DNA from: Chitinophaga pinensis
GTDB lineage: Bacteria; Bacteroidota; Bacteroidia; SXHM01
DNA length: 34,047 bases
Reading direction: 5' to 3'
Assembly: GCA_945889235.1 (NCBI GenBank)
Contig: CAMDBK010000004.1
Coordinates: 1-34,047 of the forward strand
The notes below the pieces were generated by a model, which had not been told where the DNA came from, did no database searches, and saw only the letters and a list, made by a program, of their open reading frames with translations. Position numbers and translations under genes: made by a program. Positions 3,815-23,939 of this stretch are shown in pieces; position 1 is the first letter of the stretch, and every line of letters begins with the position of its first letter.

Positions 3815-5104
3815 ATGAGCTTTAACAACACCCTTGAATTTGCACAGTCGCAGGACAAAGCAGATAAACTTTCAACTTTCAGAGACAAATTTTTCTTTCC
3901 GCAACTGAATGGAAAAGAAGCAATTTATTTCTGCGGAAATTCATTGGGATTACAACCAAAAACTGCTGCTTCAGCTTTACAACAAGAATTAAACGACTGG
4001 GCAAAGTTTGCAGTGGAAGGACATTTTCATGCAAAAAACCCGTGGTTCTCTTATGAGAAAATGTTTAATCAACCGCTTGCAAAACTTGTGGGAGCAAAGC
4101 CTTCGGAAGTTTGTGCATTGGGTTCATTGACCAATAATCTTCATTTGCTGATGGTTTCGTTTTACCGTCCGACAGCAAAGCGTTTTAAAATACTGTGCGA
4201 AGAAAAACCGTTTGCTTCTGACCAATATGCATTAGAATCACAAGTGAGATTTCATGGTTTTAATCCTCATGAAACAATTGTAGAACTAAAGCCACGAGCA
4301 GGAGAATTTACTTTGCACTCAGAAGATATTCTTGCAAAAATTGAAGAGCTGAATGAAGAACTCGCATTGGTAATGATTGGCGGTGTGAATTATTATACCG
4401 GACAGGCTTTTGACATGAAATGTATTACTGAGGCTGCACATAAAGTGGGCGCACTTGCAGGTTTTGACTTAGCTCATGCTATGGGTAATCTGGTGATGAA
4501 CCTGCACGACTGGAATGTGGATTTTGCTTGCTGGTGCAGCTATAAATATCTGAACTCGGGGCCGGGAAGCGTAGCAGGAATTTTTGTGCATGAGAAACAT
4601 GGCAATAATCCCGAACTACCGCGCTTTGCAGGCTGGTGGGGAAATAATCCTGATACACGTTTTAAAATGGAAAAAGGATTTGTTCCTGCAGTTGGTGCTG
4701 ATGGCTGGCAACTGAGCAACGCACCTGTATTCTCAATGGCTGTACACAAAATGGCATTGGATATTTTTGATGAAGCAGGGATTGAAAATCTGCGTGAGAA
4801 GAGTGAGAAGCTGACTAGTTACCTCGAATTTTTAATTGATGAAATAAATGTCAACCTGAGCGTAGTCGAAGGGCAAAAACTTAAAATCACAATTCTTACT
4901 CCACGAAATAAAGCGGAACGTGGTTGCCAATTATCACTGGTGTTTTCTGAAAACGGAAAACAAATTCATGAACAATTATTGAAAGCAGGAATTATAACCG
5001 ATTGGCGAAATCCTGATGTAATACGTCTGGCTCCTGTTCCGCTTTATAATTCGTTTGAAGATGTTTGGAAATTCGGTGATGAGTTAAGGAAGATTATCAA
5101 TTAA
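3815..5104 (+). CDS. kynU: Kynureninase
   Basis: 429 aa; IYFCGNSLGLQPKTA, NNLHLLMVSFYRPT, GFDLAHAMGNLVMNLHDWNVDFACWCSYKYLNSGPGSVAGIFVHEKH, ERGCQLSLVF, RLAPVPLYNSFEDVWKF. Confidence 0.96.
   Translation: MSFNNTLEFAQSQDKADKLSTFRDKFFFPQLNGKEAIYFCGNSLGLQPKTAASALQQELNDWAKFAVEGHFHAKNPWFSYEKMFNQPLAKLVGAKPSEVCALGSLTNNLHLLMVSFYRPTAKRFKILCEEKPFASDQYALESQVRFHGFNPHETIVELKPRAGEFTLHSEDILAKIEELNEELALVMIGGVNYYTGQAFDMKCITEAAHKVGALAGFDLAHAMGNLVMNLHDWNVDFACWCSYKYLNSGPGSVAGIFVHEKHGNNPELPRFAGWWGNNPDTRFKMEKGFVPAVGADGWQLSNAPVFSMAVHKMALDIFDEAGIENLREKSEKLTSYLEFLIDEINVNLSVVEGQKLKITILTPRNKAERGCQLSLVFSENGKQIHEQLLKAGIITDWRNPDVIRLAPVPLYNSFEDVWKFGDELRKIIN
4850..4874. repeat. Copy of a dispersed repeat (gtcaacctgagcgtagtcgaagggc) inside the kynU coding sequence
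   Basis: 23/25 identical to the reverse complement of the intergenic element at 23893-23917 (gtcaccctgagcatagtcgaagggc). Confidence 0.85.
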
Positions 5105-5109
5105 AATTG

Positions 5110-5175
5110 TCTCGCAAAGGCGCTAAGAACGCTAAGCAAACAATAAATCTTTGCGAACTTTGCGTCTTGGCGAGA
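5110..5175. repeat. Imperfect inverted repeat between kynU and rnhB
   Basis: Arm 5110-5136 tctcgcaaaggcgctaagaacgctaag; arm 5149-5175 ctttgcgaactttgcgtcttggcgaga; 21/27 complementary. Confidence 0.85.
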
Positions 5176-5182
5176 AACAAAA

Positions 5183-5779
5183 ATGCTTGAACTGCGATTT
5201 CAAAACAAGTTAATTGAAGCCGGTGTGGATGAAGCCGGACGCGGATGCCTTGCTGGACCGGTGTTTGCCGCGGCTGTTATTCTTCCAAAAAAATTCAGAT
5301 CAGAATTGTTGAATGACTCCAAACAACTGAGTGAAAAGAAAAGAGAAGAGCTTCGCCCGATTATAGAAAAAGAAGCAGTGGCATGGGCAGTTGGCATTAC
5401 AACGCATGAAGAAATTGACAAAATAAATATTCTCAACGCTTCTTATCTCGCCATGCACCGGGCGATTGAACAATTAAAAAAAACGCCACAATTGTTATTG
5501 ATTGATGGCAACCGTTTTAAAAAATACAAAGACCTTCCATTCAAGTGTATTGTTAAAGGTGACGGAAAATATATGTCCATTGCTGCCGCTTCCATTCTTG
5601 CAAAAACCCACCGTGATGAATATATGATGAAAATGGACGAGGAGTTTCCGCATTATAACTGGAGAAAAAATAAAGGGTATGGAACGCTGAAACATCGCAT
5701 AGCAATTGAGCAATATGGGGAATCAATTATTCACAGAAAGAGTTTTAAGGTGGTGGTGGTGCAGCCGACATTGTTTTAA
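5183..5779 (+). CDS. rnhB: Ribonuclease HII
   Basis: 198 aa; EAGVDEAGRGCLAGPVFAAAVILP, LLIDGNRF, KGDGKYMSIAAASILAKTHRDEYM. Confidence 0.95.
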   Translation: MLELRFQNKLIEAGVDEAGRGCLAGPVFAAAVILPKKFRSELLNDSKQLSEKKREELRPIIEKEAVAWAVGITTHEEIDKINILNASYLAMHRAIEQLKKTPQLLLIDGNRFKKYKDLPFKCIVKGDGKYMSIAAASILAKTHRDEYMMKMDEEFPHYNWRKNKGYGTLKHRIAIEQYGESIIHRKSFKVVVVQPTLF

Positions 5780-5792
5780 AAGCCTCCCCCTT

Positions 5793-5811
5793 CCCTCTCC
5801 AAAGGAGAGGG
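5793..5811. repeat. Hairpin ccctctcc-aaa-ggagaggg, part of a longer cctccccc... element, between rnhB and pdhB
   Basis: Arms 5793-5800 and 5804-5811 are perfectly complementary; related sequence lies inside the coding region at 26508-26546. Confidence 0.8.
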
Positions 5812-15802: not shown

Positions 15803-16574
15803 GAAATACAGTTTGATATGCTACTATTCCTACTGCAAGGCCCATCAATCCTCCTTCTGCGGCAGCAATAATTTTTCTCTTTCTTGCTGATTTTTTGTAG
15901 CCTTCAAGATAATTTTCATCGAAAATAAACTCGGGATGGCTGACTAATTTTTCATTTGGTTTTTGCCGGGTTGTACCTAACACAATTATATAAGTAGCAG
16001 GCGCAATAGGTCCGTAAAATGCACCCAGCCCACTGCCAATAAAACTGATCCCCGCTGAAGTTAACAGTACTGCAGTTTTTTTCGCTTTCATTCCATCCTG
16101 CCTGCCGTAAATGTACCTGCGCATTTCATCAACTGTTAAATCCAATTCGGGTTCAACAACGTCCATGACTAAAAAACCAAGCGTGTCGGGGCTGTAAATT
16201 ATTTCTTCTTTACCATCAGGATGAGTAATGCTGAAGACATTATCAACCGCTCTTCTCTCCAATTTAATATACTTTACTTTAGCCTCAGAACGAACTTTAT
16301 TAATCTTTACCTTATTAATTGCAGCTGCTTTCTGAACAGGTGTTCTTTTTACATCTGCTTCCACTTTTTCATTTTCCGTTTTGTAATTGTTTTCAATACG
16401 ATTTAGTTTCTCCTCATTAACTTTTGTTCGCGGTTTTATTCCGTAATATATCCAGTTATTATCCTGATAAAGTATATATCCTTCTTTTATTATACCGTTT
16501 GTAAAAAGCACCTTGTCCTGCGCTGAAACAATAACAGGGAATAAAAAAAGAAGGAGAAAAAATTGCTTCGTCAT
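15783..16574 (-). CDS. Hypothetical exported protein with C-terminal TM segments
   Basis: 263 aa; signal peptide MTKQFFLLLFLFPVIVSAQ; 20-bp overlap with 14918-15802. Confidence 0.7.
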   Translation of the reverse strand: MTKQFFLLLFLFPVIVSAQDKVLFTNGIIKEGYILYQDNNWIYYGIKPRTKVNEEKLNRIENNYKTENEKVEADVKRTPVQKAAAINKVKINKVRSEAKVKYIKLERRAVDNVFSITHPDGKEEIIYSPDTLGFLVMDVVEPELDLTVDEMRRYIYGRQDGMKAKKTAVLLTSAGISFIGSGLGAFYGPIAPATYIIVLGTTRQKPNEKLVSHPEFIFDENYLEGYKKSARKRKIIAAAEGGLMGLAVGIVAYQTVFRGWTVK

Positions 16575-17566
16575 TTTATCTCAACCGTTTTCACATCACC
16601 CGCAGGAGTAATGACTTTGTAATGATTTTGAACTTTTGTTTCCACCGGTTTTTTCAAACTGAAACGCATTTTTATTTTGCAGGTATATTGCACTACAGGC
16701 TCCAGAACAACAGGATTTATAACCACATCAAAGTTGTGATACGAAAGCTGGTTGTAAAACATTACCACCGGTTTGCGAATTTCGGTTACGCCTGATTTTT
16801 TACCCACTGCCTCAATGGAAGAACTGCTTGCAGGCTGGTATTTTGAATACCTGTCAATCGGAAAAGTAACAGACGTTTGTTCTGTCAACACACGATAAAC
16901 CGTATCCAGATTTACTTTAAGGTCTTTGTAATTACTCATTTTCCGTTGTGAATAAGCAATAACTGAATCACGTAATGTTTCATAAACTGAACTTGTATTC
17001 TCCACAAAATAATCTACTTTTATCAAATCATAAATCTCATGCTTTGCAGCGGCAGTAAGGATTTTATCCATTGTTTCGCCCTTAGTAAATTTCACGTGAA
17101 TATTTTTCTGCAACTCAAAACCTTTGGGAACTTCATTATAGGTTTTGCTGAAAAACTTTTTGGTTACTTCCAGTTCATAAATCGGAACCTGCGAAACCAT
17201 GTCCAGAAAAATATCGGAAGGTTTAACTCCTGCAGCAGCCACTTCATTCACAAAATTCTGGTAGCGTGTGTTCAGCAAATCATTGGCTACAGAAGCATTT
17301 TCTCCCACCTGCGTCATGTTAAAAATAGCGAGATAGGCATCAGCCTTGCGGTTAAATAGTCCGTTTACTTCAAAGGTCATGCTGTTTTCATCAATCTGAA
17401 TTTCACGCGATATGTTAAAGCTGTTTTGCCAGGTTAACTCTTCGCTATTCTGGTAATTGTAGCGGTTATCAATGCCATACATGGAGTTGCCGACTGCCTG
17501 TGAAAAGCAATTAGAAACAAGCAAGAGACAAGAGACAAGAGACAAGAGATTTAGAAAACTTTTCAT
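16571..17566 (-). CDS. Secreted protein, possibly SIMPL (DUF541)-like
   Basis: 331 aa; signal peptide; ANDLLNTRYQNFVNEVAAAGVKPSDIFLDMVSQVPIYE resembles SIMPL periodicity; 4-bp overlap with the next gene. Confidence 0.6.
   Translation of the reverse strand: MKSFLNLLSLVSCLLLVSNCFSQAVGNSMYGIDNRYNYQNSEELTWQNSFNISREIQIDENSMTFEVNGLFNRKADAYLAIFNMTQVGENASVANDLLNTRYQNFVNEVAAAGVKPSDIFLDMVSQVPIYELEVTKKFFSKTYNEVPKGFELQKNIHVKFTKGETMDKILTAAAKHEIYDLIKVDYFVENTSSVYETLRDSVIAYSQRKMSNYKDLKVNLDTVYRVLTEQTSVTFPIDRYSKYQPASSSSIEAVGKKSGVTEIRKPVVMFYNQLSYHNFDVVINPVVLEPVVQYTCKIKMRFSLKKPVETKVQNHYKVITPAGDVKTVEIK
17522..17549. repeat. Four perfect 7-bp tandem repeats (caagaga / tctcttg) in the signal-peptide coding region of 16571-17566
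   Basis: Units 17522-17528, 17529-17535, 17536-17542, 17543-17549. Confidence 0.95.
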
Positions 17567-23892: not shown

Positions 23893-23931
23893 GCCCTTCG
23901 ACTATGCTCAGGGTGACAGGCTCAGGGTGAC
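23893..23931. repeat. Dispersed repeat element gcccttcgactatgctcagggtgac plus partial duplicate ggctcagggtgac between convergent genes
   Basis: 25-bp core 23893-23917, matching the kynU-internal copy at 23/25. Confidence 0.85.
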
Positions 23932-23939
23932 AATACGTG

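Follow-up and report, generated by a model that had tools for sequence, protein, structure and literature searches.

In-frame copy of a dispersed REP-like element in a kynureninase gene of a Bacteroidia genome, and the repeats found in the same protein loops of congeneric species

REPs of the GTAG and CGTC superfamilies are short dispersed hairpins that are mostly intergenic and vary in a complementary manner in the stem. Some of them lie in frame in housekeeping genes, and the ORFs that carry them ("REP-decorated" ORFs), including those of tRNA synthetases, are described in the sections of Di Nocera et al. 2013 (PMC3733652) on which we draw here. The RPEs, in turn, are restricted to Rickettsia; these are palindromes of 105–146 bp with long stems, found as in-frame insertions in numerous conserved proteins that are unrelated to one another. 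A guanylate kinase with such an insert kept its activity, although its affinity for the substrate was changed (review PMC2229807). In many genomes, no simple repeats are more common than heptanucleotide arrays, which are present in some Bacteroidetes as well (Mrazek 2007, via the part of PMC4679880 that deals with them). In-frame insertion of REPs and RPEs is already known, and such capture of repeats (RPEs, intragenic REPs) has so far been described as scattered accidents. Alternation of REPs with other repeat classes was not found in the sections of PMC3733652 used here. In the literature searched, which covers the field in part, we found no case of a single loop being filled again and again, in sister species, with repeats of unrelated classes, so the novelty of this observation is unproven.

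The element and its copy in kynU

The window, that is, the whole stretch of 34,047 nucleotides analysed, belongs to a 2.98-Mb draft genome of 340 contigs, 79% complete (G000). It was compared with six congeners (G001–G006); the genomes are drafts, mostly or all MAGs. The kynU gene encodes kynureninase: its intact ORF of 429 aa scores 458 bits with the TIGR01814 model (cut-off 246). The features are as follows.

3815..5104, forward strand: kynU, intact, with the repeat in frame
4850..4874, forward strand: copy of the REP-like element, GTCAACCTGAGCGTAGTCGAAGGGC, encoding VNLSVVEG, KynU residues 346–353
4849..4853, forward strand: TGTCA tag, conserved 5' of the stem across the listed family copies
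4854..4857, forward strand: ACCT, 5' arm of the family stem; its outermost A is opposite G4873, a mismatch
4858..4869, forward strand: apical core GAGCGTAGTCGA, invariant in the family stack
4870..4873, forward strand: AGGG, 3' stem arm as defined by the family stack
23893..23917, reverse strand: second copy of the element, intergenic, matching GTCAACCTGAGCGTAGTCGAAGGGC at 23 of 25 positions

An earlier note on this DNA, made from the sequence alone, had described the 25-mer as translated in frame within kynU and as similar to the intergenic copy, and both statements are confirmed. In a search of the window with GTCAACCTGAGCGTAGTCGAAGGGC, allowing up to 3 mismatches, the intergenic copy (2 mismatches) is the sole other match, the number expected from shuffled sequences being 0. 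In the protein, VNLSVVEG is preceded by YLEFLIDEIN and followed by QKLKITILTPRNKAERGCQL. A direct duplication of 13 nt, GCTCAGGGTGACA, is seen at 23906–23932, at the end of the second copy.

The suggestion that near-identical copies are dispersed throughout the genome also holds. The 18-nt core CCTGAGCGTAGTCGAAGG occurs in the window genome in 41 exact copies and at 90 sites with at most 3 mismatches, against 2 for the reversed control. All seven genomes of the genus contain the element, with 23–67 sites in each of the six congeners (at most 2 mismatches). In the wider class, the exact core has a patchy distribution, being found in 37 of 395 genomes, the seven of the genus included. A text search of the literature for the repeat sequence itself yielded no paper.

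The stem was analysed by stacking 95 copies with the core GAGCRTAGTCGA. Watson–Crick pairing at the four stem positions amounts to 93, 91, 93 and 87, against 56, 52, 35 and 63 expected from base composition, and drops to chance at position 5. The compensatory variants include CCCT/AGGG, TGCT/AGCA, CTTC/GAAG, CGGT/ACCG and CAGT/ACTG, and nearly all copies listed have the TGTCA tag ahead of the stem. The element thus has the structure TGTCA, a variable covarying 4-bp stem arm, GAGCGTAGTCGA and the complementary arm, and the palindromic nature ascribed to it by the earlier note is borne out at the level of the family. The folding energies of single copies are not above those of shuffled sequences, and hence the claim of a hairpin is based on covariation, not on folding of single copies. 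The same applies to the kynU copy, whose folding energy is no better than that of shuffles; given this weak fold and the mismatched outermost pair, the hairpin should be ascribed to the family and not to this copy. Inverted dimers of the element, about 25–45 bp apart, are common.

As a high-copy hairpin-forming unit of 20–40 nt that is predominantly intergenic (64 of the 86 surveyed copies lie outside any ORF of at least 100 aa), the element is a REP in the broad sense. Its TGTCA agrees with the terminal tag of the CGTC families (CGTC, TGTC or CCTC), which include a TGTC variant. However, its stem is of 4 bp, its core is of 12 nt, and there is no CCA tail, whereas CGTC REPs have a stem of 8–9 bp, a loop of 4–5 nt and a CCA tail; further, the GTAG of the element is situated inside the apical core, whereas in GTAG REPs it is at one end, or foot, of the stem-loop (all according to the cited sections of PMC3733652). 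Since the tag agrees while the stem and loop sizes and the GTAG position differ, we consider the element a REP-like variant and not a member of these families. The comparison with RPEs drawn in the earlier note is valid as a concept, a palindromic repeat in frame in conserved proteins, but not as a family assignment, the present element being about 25 bp long and residing in Bacteroidia genomes from environmental samples. Finally, high-copy short hairpins and inverted dimers are shared with REPIN/RAYT systems, the difference being that no repeat-flanked transposase gene was found among the 15 PF01797 loci of the seven genomes.

Occupants of the KynU loop and of loops in other proteins

The earlier note described the region as length-variable in kynureninases. 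Indeed, in the alignment of KynU with its orthologs from the six congeners (87–90% identical), the loop following YLEFxIDEIN is the sole internal length-variable site. Its content differs between the species.

G000 (window genome): REP
G002, G005: AGTCGGC/AGTTGGC heptads
G003: AGTCCAA-type heptads
G001, G006: AGTCCAC/AGACCAT heptads
G004: plain short loop KEKGT, no repeat

The expectation that about eight extra residues would be seen only here was not borne out. In five of the six congeners the loop is filled with a heptad array and is of a length similar to that of the REP-bearing loop, and human kynureninase (3e9k, 2hzp, 7s3v) has a long loop without a repeat at the same place. Hence this loop is filled recurrently, the KynU REP being one of its occupants and not a unique insertion of eight residues. 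At that, no congener carries the same residues, and copies of the 25-mer type are numerous; neither of the patterns that the earlier note named as speaking against an inserted dispersed repeat, shared residues with divergent DNA or a lack of other copies, was observed. Heptad arrays in this loop are also found in more distant KynU proteins of 58–63% identity (for instance, L113, L115, L129 and L135). Exact searches with the loop strings of the congeners yielded few further copies, since heptad arrays vary in sequence, and period-7 autocorrelation was used instead.

The AlphaFold2 model of KynU (30 homologs; mean pLDDT 85, pTM 0.87) places the insert at the end of helix 323–347 and in the loop preceding strand 358–360. 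The confidence is lower in block 351–360, with pLDDT about 70 against the mean of 85. KynU with its repeat-made loop presumably retains enzymatic function.

Two other repeat classes have to be considered along with the REP. Period-7 arrays, defined with a threshold of our own choice, number 30 and 33 per 400 kb in two genomes and are the commonest among periods 4–15. They differ from the heptads of Mrazek 2007, as presented in the cited part of PMC4679880, in that the unit sequence varies and the arrays recur in protein loops occupied by REPs. PAL2 is the palindrome CCCCTCTCC...GGAGAGGGG; it is found at 30–39 sites in each of six genomes and is absent from G004, with 0 in controls. One PAL2 copy, CCTCTCC-AAA-GGAGAGG, is situated in the window at 5794–5810, in the intergenic gap following an RNase HII-like ORF (5183–5779).

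Copies of the element within genes are not confined to kynU. In surveys run on stretches of genomes, 20 of the 86 REP copies lie within ORFs of at least 200 aa. In an unbiased sample of 433 kb, 85% of which is covered by ORFs, the counts inside ORFs are 6 of 28 for REP cores, 11 of 23 for heptad arrays and 5 of 8 for PAL2. Apart from KynU, examples of proteins with a REP in the middle are listed below together with HisS and with the occupants of the same loops in congeners.

LpxB (TIGR00215): REP in G000; PAL2 in five congeners
GT4 glycosyltransferase: REP in G000; decayed REP in G004 (19/24 by eye); heptads in the others except G003, which is below the threshold
Amidohydrolase, aminofutalosine deaminase-like group: REP in G000, G004 and G006, with different stems; heptads in G001, G002, G003 and G005, some of them degenerate and below the threshold
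PLP enzyme of the D-cysteine desulfhydrase family (DcyD): REP; no alternative class found in congeners
CCDC81-HU-domain protein (p202, L202): REP; no alternative class found in congeners
Conserved unnamed protein (p016, L016): REP in G000; PAL2 in G002
HisS, histidine-tRNA ligase: REP in G003, G004 and G005; heptads in G000, G002 and G006

Thus, for six of the eight REP-bearing loops, at least one congener has a repeat of another class at the corresponding place, the exceptions being the p202 and DcyD sites. As a control, we considered 2191 windows elsewhere in these proteins, of which 24 (1.1%) contain any class in any congener. The eight proteins were selected for carrying a REP and have no more than five further indel sites, of which one is close to a REP in G003; the random-window control is therefore generous, as the REP sites are nearly the only indel loops.

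Repeats are seen in further loops as well. HutU has heptads in G000 and G003 only, and two different heptad families are present in PheT. PAL2 inserts in a PALP (DcyD-like) enzyme (13 residues) and an M20 peptidase (9 residues) are restricted to G000 among the species examined, the others having insert-free loops at these sites. The REP loop of L309 in G005 contains a second palindrome, TCCCGATAGCTATCGGGA, in the arrangement ATGCTG-TCCCGATAGCTATCGGGA-GTAGTCGAAGC.

In a tree of seven genes, some nodes of which are modestly supported, G000 is outside the cluster of G001, G005, G006, G004 and G002. Mapped on this tree, the repeat states require several independent changes, exemplified by the amidohydrolase loop with REPs in G004 and G006 and heptads in G001 and G005. 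The HisS of G004 (C18) and that of G005 (C141), L301 and L302, are 99% identical, compared to about 85% for genes overall, which points to a recent transfer or to binning contamination.

The reading frame of the REP varies between proteins, yielding TLSVVEG, PFDYAQGD or PSTTLRVT. In annotation these peptides, as well as HPERSRRV (see below), should be regarded as encoded by repeats and not as homologous motifs. Repeats that are usually intergenic keep supplying protein sequence at tolerant spots, and the same loops of several core enzymes, occupied by REPs, heptads or a second palindrome within one genus, form natural replicates useful for the study of the entry of repeats into genes, the speed of their turnover, and the effect of repeat-made loops on enzyme function.

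Possible origins of the repeat-filled loops

The 25-mer is very probably a copy of a genus-wide dispersed REP-like hairpin that landed in, or replaced, a tolerant KynU loop predicted to be at the surface, the loop being a recurrent acceptor of unrelated repeats. It is safe to state that tolerant loops are filled repeatedly from a pool of dispersed repeats. Most likely, insertions and replacements by short repeats would occur rarely and everywhere, and selection would leave those that are open in frame and situated in tolerant loops. In KynU, the repeat would persist since it is free of stops in the frame used and nearly any short sequence is tolerated by the loop. The process may well be near-neutral, with entry via transposition or templated repair. 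In the material considered, neither a target-site duplication nor a transposition intermediate was seen, and no mobilising enzyme was identified. More tentatively, and with some doubt, one may suggest that a few tolerant loops serve as docking sites where unrelated families of short repeats replace one another between sister species, providing core enzymes with a steady supply of new loop sequence, perhaps by one shared insertion route.

A specific route would be mobilisation of the hairpin into kynU as single-stranded DNA by a Y1 (HUH) transposase of the RAYT type. All seven genomes encode PF01797 proteins, and the constant loop, covarying stem and 5' tag resemble those of RAYT substrates as characterized in the cited sections of PMC3733652. 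However, no REP core was found in the about 1.5 kb around any of the 15 PF01797 loci, that is, there is no REPtron, and the presence of heptads or PAL2 in the REP-bearing loops would be left unexplained. We consider this route unlikely, if still worth keeping in mind.

A lower probability still is assigned to the loops being active hot spots, at which the DNA or RNA of the site attracts repeats or template switching swaps them, so that the alternation is mechanistic and goes beyond tolerance. It would account for unrelated classes at the same codon position in several proteins, for the similar boundaries of the KynU inserts across species (AAT before the insert, AAAA after it), and for the events that look like replacement, such as that of the REP in DcyD, where about 15 nt were swapped for 27 nt. 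On the other hand, the sites yielded no common target motif, and elsewhere REP cores show no preference for the vicinity of heptad arrays (1 of 28 lies within 100 nt, with 3.6% expected). Moreover, the loops are nearly the only length-variable sites of these proteins, hence tolerance alone suffices; with so few other indel sites, a hot spot is inseparable from the only tolerated place. Composite insertion, with REPs and heptads travelling together, was considered separately and is not supported by the same count.

Exaptation, the repeat being kept because the hairpin or the peptide acts in translational pausing or regulation, is very improbable. The covariation of the family stem indicates selection on the hairpin or a mechanistic need for it, but the kynU copy is mismatched and folds poorly, other species have unrelated sequences or none in the KynU loop, and the frames of the repeat differ between proteins. 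An assembly artefact hardly deserves consideration: short repeats can indeed cause misjoins of unrelated contigs in a draft of this kind, but both flanks belong to the same gene in frame, at 87–90% identity to the congeners, and sites of the same kind exist in other genomes, with a REP-bearing HisS in three of them, one having a 1.3-Mb contig.

Repeats in sorting tails and signal peptides

Some copies are situated near protein termini. In the secreted proteins L015 and L214, a REP occupies the same place in the C-terminal type IX sorting tail (KIVSLSVVEGQ and QLVTLSKVEGQ, respectively), and L238 and L249 have heptads at this place.

The basic REP frame HPERSRRV was met only ahead of signal-peptide-like segments. 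In L183, L189, L210 and their orthologs it directly precedes the hydrophobic core of the signal peptide, as if forming the positive n-region; the start codons are putative. In the window, a heptad array (CAAGAGA)n is situated at 17512–17554, in the signal-peptide region of a 331-aa ORF (16571–17566, reverse strand), and heptads in signal peptides recur across the window genome.

A further type of dispersed repeat, with inverted arms CTCGCAAAGGCGCTAAG ... CTTTGCGTCTTGGCGAG, is found directly 3' of kynU, at 5111–5174. It has about 20 loose matches per 400 kb, and in G002 the part of an L210 ortholog that forms the signal-peptide region is encoded by a sequence related to it.
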